Assembly: GCA_017546145.1 (NCBI GenBank)
Contig: JAFYXN010000025.1
Coordinates: 1-64,000, forward strand
Direction of reading: 5' to 3'
Source: Clostridia bacterium
GTDB lineage: Bacteria; Bacillota; Clostridia; Monoglobales; Monoglobaceae
DNA: 64,000 nucleotides
Positions 4,807 to 51,510 of the stretch are shown here, piece by piece; within the stretch, counting starts at the first letter, position 1, and each line of letters begins with the position of its first letter. A program made the translations under genes and the position numbers. The notes beneath the pieces were generated by a model. It did no database searches. It saw nothing but the letters and a program-made list of their open reading frames with translations, and was not told the DNA's origin.

Positions 4807-5003
4807 TAATACACCCTGCGATGTTCGTAGATGCGGATCAATGTAAAACCAACATTTTTTGAAAGGGAATTCATCTCCGATAGGCGGCGCACATGCCTCC
4901 CGCGGTTTCCGCGGCCAGTGGACTTGTAATGTCTTCGGGACTTATCCCACCTGCCAAGCAGGTTTTTACTTTATCCCGTATACGGCATAGGCGGGGTTTA
5001 TTT
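4807..5003 (+). ncRNA. ssrS: Probable 6S RNA
   Basis: About 197 nt. The 5' part carries CCCTGCGATGTTCG, matching the conserved 6S start (TCTGAGATGTTCG in E. coli). It pairs with the 3' end: ACCCTGC at 4812-4818 with GGCGGGGT near 4990-4997. Between the arms lies a long irregular helix with a central GC-rich hairpin near 4890-4912, as expected for a DNA-mimicking 6S fold. 6S RNA binds sigma-A RNA polymerase holoenzyme and lowers transcription in stationary phase. It was identified by motif and overall architecture, not by a covariance model. The region is non-coding and preceded by a sigma-A promoter. Confidence 0.66.
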
Positions 5004-6667: not shown

Positions 6668-6770
6668 AGCAAAGTAGGAAGCAATGCGTTAAGTGAAGGA
6701 CGGACGGGAAGTTGCCGTCTTTACGAAAAGCCGTATACGGCTTGCGGTATTGTTTCCGCATTCCGTTGCT
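6668..6770 (+). promoter_or_regulatory. Tetrahydrofolate (THF) riboswitch
   Basis: The sequence matches the published THF-riboswitch pattern: GTAG, GCGTTAAGTG, GGGAAGTTG, ACGAA, GCGGT and GCATTCCG occur in the known order. The helices form exactly. P1 is AGCAA (6668-6672) with TTGCT (6766-6770). P2 is GGAAGCAAT with ATTGTTTCC, nine pairs. P3 is AAGGACGG with CCGTCTTT. P4 is AAGCCG with CGGCTT. The class senses tetrahydrofolate and usually represses folate uptake or synthesis genes. Here it precedes folT and folC, as expected. Confidence 0.92.
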
Positions 6771-16659: not shown

Positions 16660-17304
16660 TTATAACTCAAACAACTCCGAAAAATCATTTATATAATAAT
16701 CACAAACGCTTTTTATCTCATCACAGTATTCCTCTGATGAGCTGTCATATACTCCGCAAACCTTCATTCCGGCATCCACCGCCGTTTTGTCGGCATTCAG
16801 GTTGTCGTCAAGAAACAATATCTCATTAACCGGCTTGCCAATTTTTTGCGCCGCCATTTTATAAATTTGCGGGTCTGCCTTTGTTGTCTTAAAATCGTCA
16901 CACGACCACACATTTGTAAAAAGGTCATAAATCCCCAGTCTTTTCAGGCACACATCCAAAACCAAATGGGGGCTTGCTGTCAAAACGTTAAGGTCTGCCC
17001 CCTGCTCCTTTAATCTTTTCAAACCCTCAACCACGTTTACTTTTGCTGCTATATTGTGCGCATATTCGTCATAGGCGTATTTGTTCATAAGCGCGATGAC
17101 CTCTGCTTCAGGCATTTTAAGCCCAAGGTGTTCGTTGTAATACTTTGCCGTTTTAGCATACCCCAAAGGCGTGATAATCTTTATAAGGTCGCTTGTGTAC
17201 GTTATGCCGTTTTCATCCAGTATCCTCAGCATAACCGATATATACGCAGGCATGGAATCAACAAGCGTTCCGTCAAAATCAAATAAATATGCAGTATATT
17301 TCAT
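16660..17304 (-). CDS. HAD-superfamily phosphatase, phosphoglycolate-phosphatase-like
   Basis: 214 residues. Motif I is DFDGTLVDS (nucleophile Asp9, acid Asp11), motif II NVLTASPH, motif III around Lys142, and motif IV FLDDNLNAD. A helical cap occurs between motifs I and II (subclass I). Such enzymes hydrolyse small phosphate esters; the substrate cannot be predicted. It heads a two-gene leftward unit with the serine hydrolase. Confidence 0.87.
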   Translation of the reverse strand: MKYTAYLFDFDGTLVDSMPAYISVMLRILDENGITYTSDLIKIITPLGYAKTAKYYNEHLGLKMPEAEVIALMNKYAYDEYAHNIAAKVNVVEGLKRLKEQGADLNVLTASPHLVLDVCLKRLGIYDLFTNVWSCDDFKTTKADPQIYKMAAQKIGKPVNEILFLDDNLNADKTAVDAGMKVCGVYDSSSEEYCDEIKSVCDYYINDFSELFEL

Positions 17305-17407
17305 AACCTACTCCCCTAAATTTAGGTTAACTTTAATTTAAATCATTATATCACTATATATTTTCTGCGTCAATTATTTGCCCCATAATTCCTTTAATTC
17401 CAATTAT

Positions 17408-17435
17408 TGTAACATTTCTGTAACATATCTGTAAC
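17408..17435 (+). promoter_or_regulatory. Triple WalR (YycF)-type box
   Basis: TGTAAC occurs three times, at 17408, 17419 and 17430, each 11 bp apart with 5-bp spacers. This fits the WalR consensus TGTWAH-N5-TGTWAH, extended by one half-site. The last half-site ends 18 bp before the -35 of the following promoter, a position suited to activation. The downstream gene encodes an NlpC/P60 wall hydrolase, the typical WalR target class. The sequence match is direct; regulator identity is inferred. Confidence 0.7.
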
Positions 17436-17453
17436 CGTAAAGTCAAGGAGGGG

Positions 17454-17482
17454 TTGACAAATTGGCTTTGTTGTTGTATAAT
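17454..17482 (+). promoter_or_regulatory. Sigma-A promoter of the NlpC/P60 gene
   Basis: Perfect TTGACA (17454-17459), 17-bp spacer, perfect TATAAT (17477-17482), giving a leader of about 70 nt before the TTG start at 17558. Confidence 0.85.
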
Positions 17483-17557
17483 GGCTTTTGTAAATGTTTA
17501 AAATTTTTAAGTATAGGAGGATAGCGGAAAACAGAAGATTTTGGAGGTAAATTAATT

Positions 17558-18241
17558 TTGCAGTATTTTAAGAGAGTTACAGCGATTTTTATCGCAGTTG
17601 TTATAGTTCTTTCTATGGCACTTACTGCCGTAGGAGCAGAGGACACAAAACGCCACGGGATTGTTACAGCATCGCTTCTCAATCTGCGTCAGGCGGCAAG
17701 CACAAATTCGGCTATTTTAGCACAAATTCCCAACGGCACAAGCGTTAATGTAATCAAGCTTGAATCCGGCTGGGCAAACGTCATCTACAACGGTACAACA
17801 GGTTATGTTTCGCTTGATTATCTCAAGATTATGAGCGGCGAAGCTCCTTCACGAAACGAAGCTGTTTCATCCAAGGGTCAGGCAATCGTAGAACTTGCCA
17901 AGAAGTACATAGGCACACCGTATGTTTACGGCGGTTCTTCGCCTTCAGGGTTTGACTGCAGCGGCTTTGTATATTATCTGTACAAAAGTATGGGTGTTAC
18001 CCTTAACCGCGTCGCAGCAGACCAGATGACCAACGGAACGTGGGTTCCCAAAAATGCACTTCAGCCCGGCGACATAGTCGGCTTTGCAAACCGCAGCGGC
18101 TATATTAACCACGTAGGAATTTATGCCGGCAACGGTATGATGATTCACTCACCGCAGACCGGCGAATATGTCAGATACGAAAGTATTGTTACCGGCAACT
18201 ACGCAAATCGCATTACCTGCGGAAGACGAATTTTTAACTAA
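17558..18241 (+). CDS. Secreted NlpC/P60 cell-wall endopeptidase with SH3 domain
   Basis: 227 residues. A signal peptide (about 1-27) is followed by a bacterial SH3 domain (about 34-90) and an NlpC/P60 (C40) domain (about 105-227). Catalytic residues are visible: Cys134 in FDCSGFVYYLY, His185 in NHVGIYAG, and His197 in MIHSPQ. It should cleave D-Glu-diamino-acid bonds in peptidoglycan stem peptides outside the cell, helping wall turnover or daughter separation. It starts at TTG with GGAGG 10 bases upstream. It stands as a single gene with a consensus promoter, a triple WalR-type box and its own terminator. Confidence 0.92.
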   Translation: MQYFKRVTAIFIAVVIVLSMALTAVGAEDTKRHGIVTASLLNLRQAASTNSAILAQIPNGTSVNVIKLESGWANVIYNGTTGYVSLDYLKIMSGEAPSRNEAVSSKGQAIVELAKKYIGTPYVYGGSSPSGFDCSGFVYYLYKSMGVTLNRVAADQMTNGTWVPKNALQPGDIVGFANRSGYINHVGIYAGNGMMIHSPQTGEYVRYESIVTGNYANRITCGRRIFN

Positions 18242-18248
18242 GCAACCC

Positions 18249-18289
18249 AAAAAGGCTGCCCGGGCAAATTGCCTTGGGACAGCCTTTTT
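18249..18289 (+). terminator. Terminator after the NlpC/P60 gene
   Basis: AAAAAGGCTG pairs with CAGCCTTTTT around an about 20-nt internal part, ending in a T run. It lies 8 bp after the stop codon. Confidence 0.85.
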
Positions 18290-48050: not shown

Positions 48051-48145
48051 GTGAAATAAATCCTCACACCGAAGGTGTATTTCATATTGCGAAGCAATAT
48101 TTCACGCACGAAGTGCATTTCATAAATCCGCAGGATTTATTTTGT
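48051..48145. repeat. Multi-hairpin element beside the tmRNA terminator
   Basis: The outer arms AAATAAATCC and GGATTTATTT enclose three small hairpins with GAA loops: ACACC/GGTGT, ATTGC/GCAAT and GCAC/GTGC, separated by TTTCA spacers. A regular, clearly evolved architecture with no coding capacity. It resembles short repetitive hairpin elements in intergenic regions of gut Firmicutes. Confidence 0.75.
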
Positions 48146-48147
48146 TG

Positions 48148-48180: not shown

Positions 48181-48529
48181 TGGTGGAGGCGAGGGGAATT
48201 GAACCCCTGTCCGAAAACCTATTCATATCCGGCGCTACGAGCGTAGTCTGTGGTCAGGATTCCCCATCTTTAAAGTCCGCAGACAAACTTTAAAGACCGG
48301 TAGCTTCATAAAATCGTGACTTTGTCAAAGCTTTCAAAGTTCATGTGCACCGCTCATGTTGATGCCCTTATCCCCAAACGCGGTAATCGGGGAAGGACAG
48401 CCGCCATAACTTAGGCAGCGTAAGCTAAATTTTTGTTAGCGTTTAATTTTAAGTTTGGGTTTTTTACGCAGCACCCGCTGCGGCTCGCTCCGAATACTTC
48501 AAAATCCCCGTCGAAACCTTTACGCCCCC
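48181..48529 (-). ncRNA. ssrA: Transfer-messenger RNA
   Basis: About 349 nt. The 5' end GGGGGCGTAAAGGTTTCGAC pairs with the 3' end, which carries the T-arm-like GGTTCAATTCCCCTCGCC and terminal ACCA. The tag frame GCT AAC AAA AAT TTA GCT TAC GCT GCC TAA gives ANKNLAYAA, added after the tRNA-borne alanine. It rescues stalled ribosomes with SmpB, whose gene lies just upstream. A TATTAT -10 element lies 7 bp before the 5' end. Confidence 0.96.
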
Positions 48530-49737: not shown

Positions 49738-51510
49738 TTAGCCTGCAGGGAATTTTATGGTTACTCTTGTTCCCTCGCCTACGGCGCTCTCCATACCAAT
49801 TGTACCGCCATGATTTTCAATAATCTCTTTTGCAATGGCAAGACCAAGACCTGTGCCGCCCTGCTCTCTTGACCGCGCCTTATCGACACGATAAAACCTT
49901 TCAAAAATATGCGGTAAGTCCTGTTCTGGAATGCCTATACCGGTATCCTCAATTTTTATATATACCTCGTTATACAAAAATCCCACAAACACGCGTATCT
50001 CGCCGCCTTCGGGAGTGTACTTCATTGAGTTTGAGATTATATTCTTCACCGCGCGCTCTATCTGGAAGGTGTCGCCTAAAACCGGAGGAACTTCGTTTAC
50101 CTTATTATAAAGAAGCTTTTGACCGCGGTTTTGGGTTTCGACCTTAAATGTTTCAACAATCTCGCGTACCAGCATATCCAAATCAAAGACCTCTTTATTC
50201 ATCTCAATGCTCTGGGCATCAAACTTTGAAAGGGTCAGAAGGTTTTTGACAAGGCTGGTCATTTTGTCGGTTTCGTTATGAATTGTATTTAAAAACGAAA
50301 TCGTCATTTCGTCTCCTACCGGATAGTTGTCAAGAAGTGTTTCGGTATATGTTCCGATAGTGGTAAGCGGAGTTTTAAGCTCATGCGAAACCTCTGCCAC
50401 AAACTTTCTTCGGGACAGCTCAAGATTAAACTGCTCGGTAATATCGCTGAACACACAAACCACACCGGCAACACGCTCGTCCTCAAACTTAAACGGCAAA
50501 AAGTACGCCTTGATGTGCTTGTTGTTTACCTCAATATCACGTATTTCTGTGCGGAACCTGGTCAAATACATAAACTCTGCCATACACACATCAGAATTTA
50601 ATTCCTCAAAAAATTTATCAAACCTGATTTCATCGGTGTTATCAAGCCTGAACATATTTTTTGCCGTCATGTTAATCGAAATTATCTCCTGACTTGTGTT
50701 AAACGCAATAATTCCGTTATTGATGTGTTCAAGAATTATCTCCAGCTTGTGCTTCTCGGTTGCAACGTCATTGAGCGCAGTTTTCATTACGCCGCCCATA
50801 TAGTTAAAGGTTTCCACCAGTGTTCCAATCTCGTCATGGGATTGCGGCTCCAGATTGGACTCAAAGTTGCCCTCGGCAAAATCCTCTGCCTTCTCGGTCA
50901 GCACCGATATTGGCTTTGATATGGTTTTTGACAGAAAATACCCAAGAAAAACCGACGCCAGCACCCCGAAAAGAAGCGCCTGAACAATTATATAAAGCAT
51001 ATTGCTTGTAAGAGTGTTTGCATTTTGCTTGTTGTCACGCACATAAATAATATATCCGCTCTCGCCCGGCTTGCCGTCAAGAAAATAAGCATAATCCATA
51101 TACGCCGCGTTGGAACGGATGCTGCGCCCCACACCGCCGGTCATTGCCTGAATTATATTGGGGGTTTTTTCAAGTGCATCTACCCCCGTACCCGTTGTAA
51201 CAATTCTTGACGCGTCCTTTGCATCAAGAACCGCACACTGACGCTGCTCTGAAAGCCCCAGCTGGCTGGAGTACGCCGAAATAACCGTATTTATCCTTGC
51301 CGCACGGTCTTCCTTTGAAAGGTCGCTGTTTAAGGTTTCAAACATTACCTCGGAAAAGCTGCCCGACATAACCTTATCCATCTGTATGCGGAAGTCATCA
51401 CTGTAAAGCCTGATTATGCTTCCGAACATATATATCCCAACAAAAAGCATAATGGCAAAAACCAGTGCCACAAAAATACATACTATTTTCCATTGCATTC
51501 GTCTGAACAT
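49738..51510 (-). CDS. WalK-like sensor histidine kinase
   Basis: 590 residues. TM1 is at about 10-30, an extracytoplasmic sensor (about 31-165) and TM2 about 168-190 follow. Then come a HAMP domain (about 190-245), a PAS domain (about 255-355), HisKA with the H-box FVAEVSHELKTPLTTIGTYT and HATPase with NIISNSMKY, DTGIGIPEQDLPHIF and GGTGLGLAIAKEI. The TM-sensor-TM-HAMP-PAS-HisKA layout is that of WalK/VicK and PhoR kinases. No response-regulator gene is next to it: two glycosyltransferase genes precede it by 20 bp. WalK is favoured because of the WalR-type boxes at 17.4 kb, but PhoR is possible. Confidence 0.87.
   Translation of the reverse strand: MFRRMQWKIVCIFVALVFAIMLFVGIYMFGSIIRLYSDDFRIQMDKVMSGSFSEVMFETLNSDLSKEDRAARINTVISAYSSQLGLSEQRQCAVLDAKDASRIVTTGTGVDALEKTPNIIQAMTGGVGRSIRSNAAYMDYAYFLDGKPGESGYIIYVRDNKQNANTLTSNMLYIIVQALLFGVLASVFLGYFLSKTISKPISVLTEKAEDFAEGNFESNLEPQSHDEIGTLVETFNYMGGVMKTALNDVATEKHKLEIILEHINNGIIAFNTSQEIISINMTAKNMFRLDNTDEIRFDKFFEELNSDVCMAEFMYLTRFRTEIRDIEVNNKHIKAYFLPFKFEDERVAGVVCVFSDITEQFNLELSRRKFVAEVSHELKTPLTTIGTYTETLLDNYPVGDEMTISFLNTIHNETDKMTSLVKNLLTLSKFDAQSIEMNKEVFDLDMLVREIVETFKVETQNRGQKLLYNKVNEVPPVLGDTFQIERAVKNIISNSMKYTPEGGEIRVFVGFLYNEVYIKIEDTGIGIPEQDLPHIFERFYRVDKARSREQGGTGLGLAIAKEIIENHGGTIGMESAVGEGTRVTIKFPAG

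Follow-up and report, generated by a model that had tools for sequence, protein, structure and literature searches.

A triple TGTAAC array before an NlpC/P60 gene as a probable WalR operator in Monoglobales

In the studied Bacillota, growth and the cutting of the cell wall are coupled by an essential switch, the WalRK pair. The window, the whole 64,000-nucleotide stretch of DNA analysed here, carries three TGTAAC copies before the gene of an NlpC/P60 protein, which raises the question of the regulator that reads them and the direction in which it acts. The first-pass annotation had described three copies at exact 11-bp steps just upstream of a perfect sigma-A promoter, and this description holds: the copies begin at 17408, 17419 and 17430, all on the forward strand, and the promoter (TTGACA-N17-TATAAT) scores 12/12. 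The features of the locus are as follows.

17408..17413, forward strand: half-site 1, TGTAAC, exact
17419..17424, forward strand: half-site 2, TGTAAC, exact, 11 bp after half-site 1
17430..17435, forward strand: half-site 3, TGTAAC, exact, 11 bp after half-site 2, its start 24 bp before the −35
17454..17459, forward strand: −35, TTGACA
17477..17482, forward strand: −10, TATAAT, after a 17-bp spacer
17515..17547, forward strand: 5′ leader block AGGAGGATAGCGGAAAACAGAAGATTTTGGAGG, exact in 3 of the 4 sequences compared
17558..18241, forward strand: gene of a secreted-looking 227-aa protein with SH3_3 and NLPC_P60 domain matches, TTG start
18249..18289 (about), forward strand: hairpin with a T run, z −4.1, a probable terminator
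17345..17373, reverse strand: divergent promoter TTGACG-N17-TATAAT with TG before the −10, 11/12, for a HAD-family gene at 16660-17304

The product of 17558..18241 is presumed to be a peptidoglycan endopeptidase. On the other side of the array, the −35 of the divergent promoter is about 34 bp from the TGTAAC box, and the HAD-family gene could share it. The leader block AGGAGGATAGCGGAAAACAGAAGATTTTGGAGG, which holds two Shine-Dalgarno-like stretches, is the same in two further species from this genus (G005 and G006) and near-identical in G002, with diverging flanks. Other genera have purine-rich leaders at this position, some with a possible mini-ORF, and in G012 (locus L051) the leader from the box-bearing promoter to the NlpC start is about 330 nt, far longer than in the genome of the window (G000). 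An Rfam search of the NlpC leader returned no family up to E = 1. Elsewhere in the window, RNA matches above the gathering score comprise a 6S RNA (4810-5001), a THF riboswitch (6668-6770), a Gut-1 RNA (48074-48147) and a tmRNA (48181-48529).

The half-site, the 11-bp step and the trailing A are those of the WalR/YycF/VicR boxes of Bacillota (TGTWAH-N5-TGTWAH; in the VicR form, TGTWAHA-N4-TGTWAHA). The exact triple occurs once in the genome (1.66 Mb in 33 contigs, 89.5% complete), and within the window the triple pattern with at most 3 mismatches matches twice, at the array and at the array shifted by one step, where shuffles average 0.10. The genome scan proposed earlier with the loose consensus TGTWAH-N5-TGTWAH stays near background (35 places, 24 for the reversed pattern) and is too weak to be informative, so the tighter TGTAAC and TGTAACA forms were used, and these are selective in genus, order and class. 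With at most one mismatch, TGTAAC-N5-TGTAAC occurs at 17 places in G000, against 12 for the reversed control; these amount to 15 sites with 7 intergenic, compared with 12 control sites of which 1 is intergenic and 1 partly so. Six of the seven intergenic sites adjoin envelope genes (NlpC/P60, M23-walR, SLH-amidase, two more SLH genes and amidase_3), and the seventh (C18) is not beside one. Across the genus, 6 of the 9 genomes contain the exact pair, at 9 places in all (reversed control 1). These reduce to 8 sites, of which four belong to the walR operon, three to the NlpC gene (G000, G004, G008) and one to an S-layer (SLH) gene.

Wider searches covered 51 genomes of the order and 391 of the class, two sets that share genomes. 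Exact triples are present at 21 places in 16/51 order genomes and at 22 places in 18/391 class genomes, with a reversed control of 0 in each. Apart from the one in this window, the order's 21 triples fall, judged by domain tests in single members and by eye in the others, before a copper-amine-oxidase-N/NAGPA protein (7), between G5/3D and methylase genes (9), at D-Ala-D-Ala carboxypeptidase-like genes (2), before mreB (1) and near a band-7-like gene (1). Of the 22 class triples, 7 fall outside the order: two at NAGPA genes, one at a polysaccharide deacetylase gene, one at an alkaline phosphatase gene and three at genes of unknown role. NAGPA (phosphodiester glycosidase) genes follow exact triples in three lineages (L073 and L128, domain-tested; L123, by eye).

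The VicR form TGTAACA-N4-TGTAACA is found in the order at 138 places, overlapping copies counted, in 36/51 genomes, with a control of 1, and 63 of the 85 deduplicated sites examined are intergenic by a strict rule. Its neighbours include mreB at 8 loci (one domain-tested), ftsZ at 2 (one tested) and SLH genes, and S11 carboxypeptidases stand beside boxes at 6 loci, the exact-triple loci included (one domain-tested). The earlier expectation that the motif precedes wall genes and is not randomly placed is thus borne out for the tight form in the genome, the genus and the order. GAPDH, which is not an envelope gene, has TGTAACA pairs at 4 loci (one domain-tested); these pairs lie about 210-260 bp upstream in Monoglobus-like genomes (L266, L268, L269, L295) and mark an unexpected non-wall target.

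The first-pass annotation regarded three copies as exceptional against the usual two, and on this point it has to be revised. Among 42 non-redundant clusters, flanking half-sites with at least 5/6 matches are found 9 times at +22, 7 times at −11 and 5 times at −22, the next best offset having 3. With exact triples in 16 of the 51 order genomes and half-sites recurring beside other sites, three copies are unexceptional here, and three half-sites are a recurrent form. The published WalR/YycF/VicR site, as given in the sources cited below, has two half-sites, whereas the extra ones here keep the exact 11-bp register.

A WalR operator implies a WalR, and the homologue sought for the earlier proposal is present. 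Of the 3 OmpR-type regulators in the genome, the best WalR candidate is encoded on contig C8; its top NCBIfam model is YycF, at 331.6 bits just below the cut-off of 340, which the WalR orthologue of Petroclostridium sp. X23 clears (354.4). Its DNA-binding domain is nearest to the solved YycF, WalR and VicR domains, and the stretch GDVRTVDVTVRRLREK, which we take to be the recognition helix, is the same as in 2d1v. The gene is preceded by an M23-G5-LysM gene and followed by one that we take to be rlmH from its position and sequence (M23-walR-rlmH); rlmH is present at 19/30 walR loci. Of 50 further genomes searched, 47 have a WalR match of 61-93% identity, and G028, G038 and G048 are without one that good. 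The nearest named WalR record, at 75% identity, and the taxonomy entry point to Monoglobales as the order.

The candidate partner is encoded in the window itself.

49738..51510, reverse strand: window kinase with HAMP, HisKA and HATPase_c domains, top NCBIfam model WalK, under its cut-off

This kinase scores 422 bits for WalK (cut-off 725) and 326 for PnpS (cut-off 400), and with both below cut-off the models alone leave its identity unsettled. In Petroclostridium sp. X23 (L179), walR is directly followed by a kinase gene whose product is likewise under the WalK cut-off (513 against 725). The window kinase shares 44% identity with that product over residues 1-590, and 42% over residues 1-589 with the kinase of a second locus. 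This full-length similarity to a walR-adjacent kinase elsewhere supports its assignment as a WalK orthologue and agrees with its earlier description as WalK-like. In the studied Firmicutes walR and walK lie in one operon, whereas here they are apart: no match to the window kinase lies within 1.5 kb of walR at any of the 30 loci searched, and in G000 the two genes sit on different contigs.

The walR promoter itself carries the box. At 11 of 14 M23-walR loci a box lies just past a −10 of the operon, namely in 9/9 of the genus (one with only 9/12 matches) and 2/2 of group g4, with none in two g2 loci and G041. Where walR has its own promoter, a pair lies about 100-120 bp before walR at 7 of 11 g7 loci, and an uncultured Monoglobus record shows the same kind of pair. 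Over all 30 walR loci, 18 have a walR-promoter box and 12 do not. The position after the −10 at M23-walR-rlmH predicts negative autoregulation. The Wal operons of C. difficile and other Firmicutes are not autoregulated according to PMC9210968, and the order would differ from these systems if WalR binds the walR-promoter box. This box, together with a walK encoded elsewhere, is the least expected part of the findings. A literature search, with most subscription journals outside its scope, yielded no recognised description of three WalR repeats or half-sites, of a Monoglobus WalR or of WalR autoregulation.

At the NlpC gene, conservation is patchier. A matrix built only from 13 walR-promoter sites was applied to 260 bp upstream of 30 NlpC homologues (122 bp readable in G005), and it finds strong boxes in 4 of them (G000, G004, G008 and G041), each with 0/300 shuffles as good. 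In G012 an exact pair stands farther upstream, about 400 bp from the NlpC homologue, and precedes a perfect promoter of that gene; in all five boxed genes the last half-site is 22-24 bp from the −35. The remaining homologues have no box within 260 bp, including that of the closest relative, G002, whose NlpC protein is 85% identical. The NlpC box was therefore rejected as a conserved footprint for most homologues, and its presence in only 5 of 30 suggests that it is either old with frequent loss or repeatedly gained.

The direction of control may be read from the position of the boxes. In S. aureus, according to PMC10746227, activation is associated with sites that lie upstream of the −35, and repression with those located between the −35 and −10 or downstream of them. 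By this rule the array in the window, upstream of the −35, predicts activation of the NlpC/P60 gene. Among 43 clusters, 29 have a nearby promoter of at least 10/12, with the box only before the −35 in 13, only after the −10 in 10 and mixed or overlapping in 6, a raw count made without a shuffled control.

Other readers of the box have to be weighed against WalR. The regulator RR2, a paralogue encoded on C11 in a TrmN6-rsmI-RR2-HK2-HtrA operon, might bind in place of WalR or in addition to it, which is unlikely although RR2 is 49% identical to WalR in G000 and has YycF as its top NCBIfam model too (267.8 bits). Also in its favour, its own operon adjoins the box in Monoglobus-like genomes, where nine loci have an exact triple flanked by the G5/3D gene and by the methylase gene which in G000 heads the RR2 operon. 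Before the G000 methylase gene, however, the best pair within 1.3 kb reaches 9/12, with none of at least 10/12; RR2 is without the GDVRTVDVTVRRLREK stretch of solved YycF that WalR possesses; and the box tracks walR in both of its gene contexts, before M23-walR and directly before walR. The nine loci are L077, L079-L083 and L088-L090, where the upstream gene encodes a DUF348/G5/3D wall protein; in G000 the methylase-headed operon also holds rsmI and the genes of the paralogue RR2, of its kinase HK2 and of an HtrA-like protease.

Pho boxes, too, consist of 11-bp repeats, and a phosphate-responsive regulator of the PhoP/PhoB type could in principle bind the array, as the first-pass annotation had considered. 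Outside the order, in another family of the class, one exact triple does precede an alkaline phosphatase gene (L129), but none of the three OmpR-type regulators of this 89.5% complete genome passes the PhoB cut-off and the boxes in G000 adjoin wall and S-layer genes rather than genes of phosphate uptake, which makes this reading quite improbable. The only PhoU domains in G000 lie in a single long open frame on C20; their absence was rejected as an argument against a Pho system, since PhoU was not found in a B. subtilis control either and the result argues little. The half-site may nevertheless also be read by RR2, or by a PhoP-type regulator in other lineages. That the array is a functionless chance repeat in AT-rich intergenic DNA is hardly credible: the loose consensus near background and the boxless NlpC gene of the closest relative would fit it, but not the exact triples in order (21 places in 51 genomes) and class (22 places in 391) against reversed controls of 0, the extended pair at 138 places versus 1, or the spacing to the −35 that five NlpC genes have in common.

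The array is thus most likely a docking site for WalR. The earlier operator proposal is well supported by the computed features, which are the array and its spacing from the −35, the boxes found again at the walR operon and at wall genes, and the WalR and WalK orthologues. On the other side weigh the loose consensus, the one-mismatch pair (17 places against 12), the patchy conservation at NlpC genes, the NCBIfam scores of WalR and the kinase below their cut-offs, the RR2 operon beside the box in Monoglobus-like genomes and the 12 walR loci that have no box. From these features we infer WalR binding at the array, phosphotransfer from the window kinase, activation of the NlpC/P60 gene and repression elsewhere. 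Once phosphorylated by the window kinase (WalK, 49738-51510), WalR would occupy two half-sites as a head-to-tail dimer, and the third half-site would recruit or stabilise a further WalR subunit. Binding close before the −35 would make WalR an activator of the NlpC/P60 endopeptidase gene, and boxes just past a −10 would make it a repressor; the M23-walR-rlmH operon has such a box, hence the predicted negative autoregulation. This joint reading, an extended WalR operator with WalK-driven activation of NlpC/P60 and repression from boxes past the −10, including that of the walR operon, is probable as a whole.

Known Wal systems agree with this reading in part. According to PMC4168254, PMC9210968 and PMC10746227, the targets of WalR/YycF/VicR include peptidoglycan hydrolase, S-layer and ftsZ genes. 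In B. subtilis, WalR-P activates the D,L-endopeptidase genes lytE and cwlO and represses iseA in a homeostatic loop, as PMC7299342 describes; in this order, unlike B. subtilis, walR stands with M23 and rlmH, away from walK and with its own promoter boxed. Another parallel, the C. difficile NlpC/P60 gene cd630_27680, likewise belongs to Clostridia and has two predicted WalR sites, but it is repressed on WalR overexpression according to PMC9210968, whereas activation is predicted here, and by analogy this counts against the activation reading.

In conclusion, the Wal system may have been rewired in Monoglobales-like Clostridia, with walR apart from walK and self-repressing through a conserved operator just past the −10, arrays of at least three half-sites in 11-bp register, and activation or repression set by position, a broader proposal that could equally hold or fail. 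For an order with few cultured members, the analysis offers a predicted WalR regulon in which the activated and repressed genes, the self-control and the effect of the third half-site are open to direct tests. Negative autoregulation, if true, would set the speed and steadiness with which wall hydrolysis is tuned.
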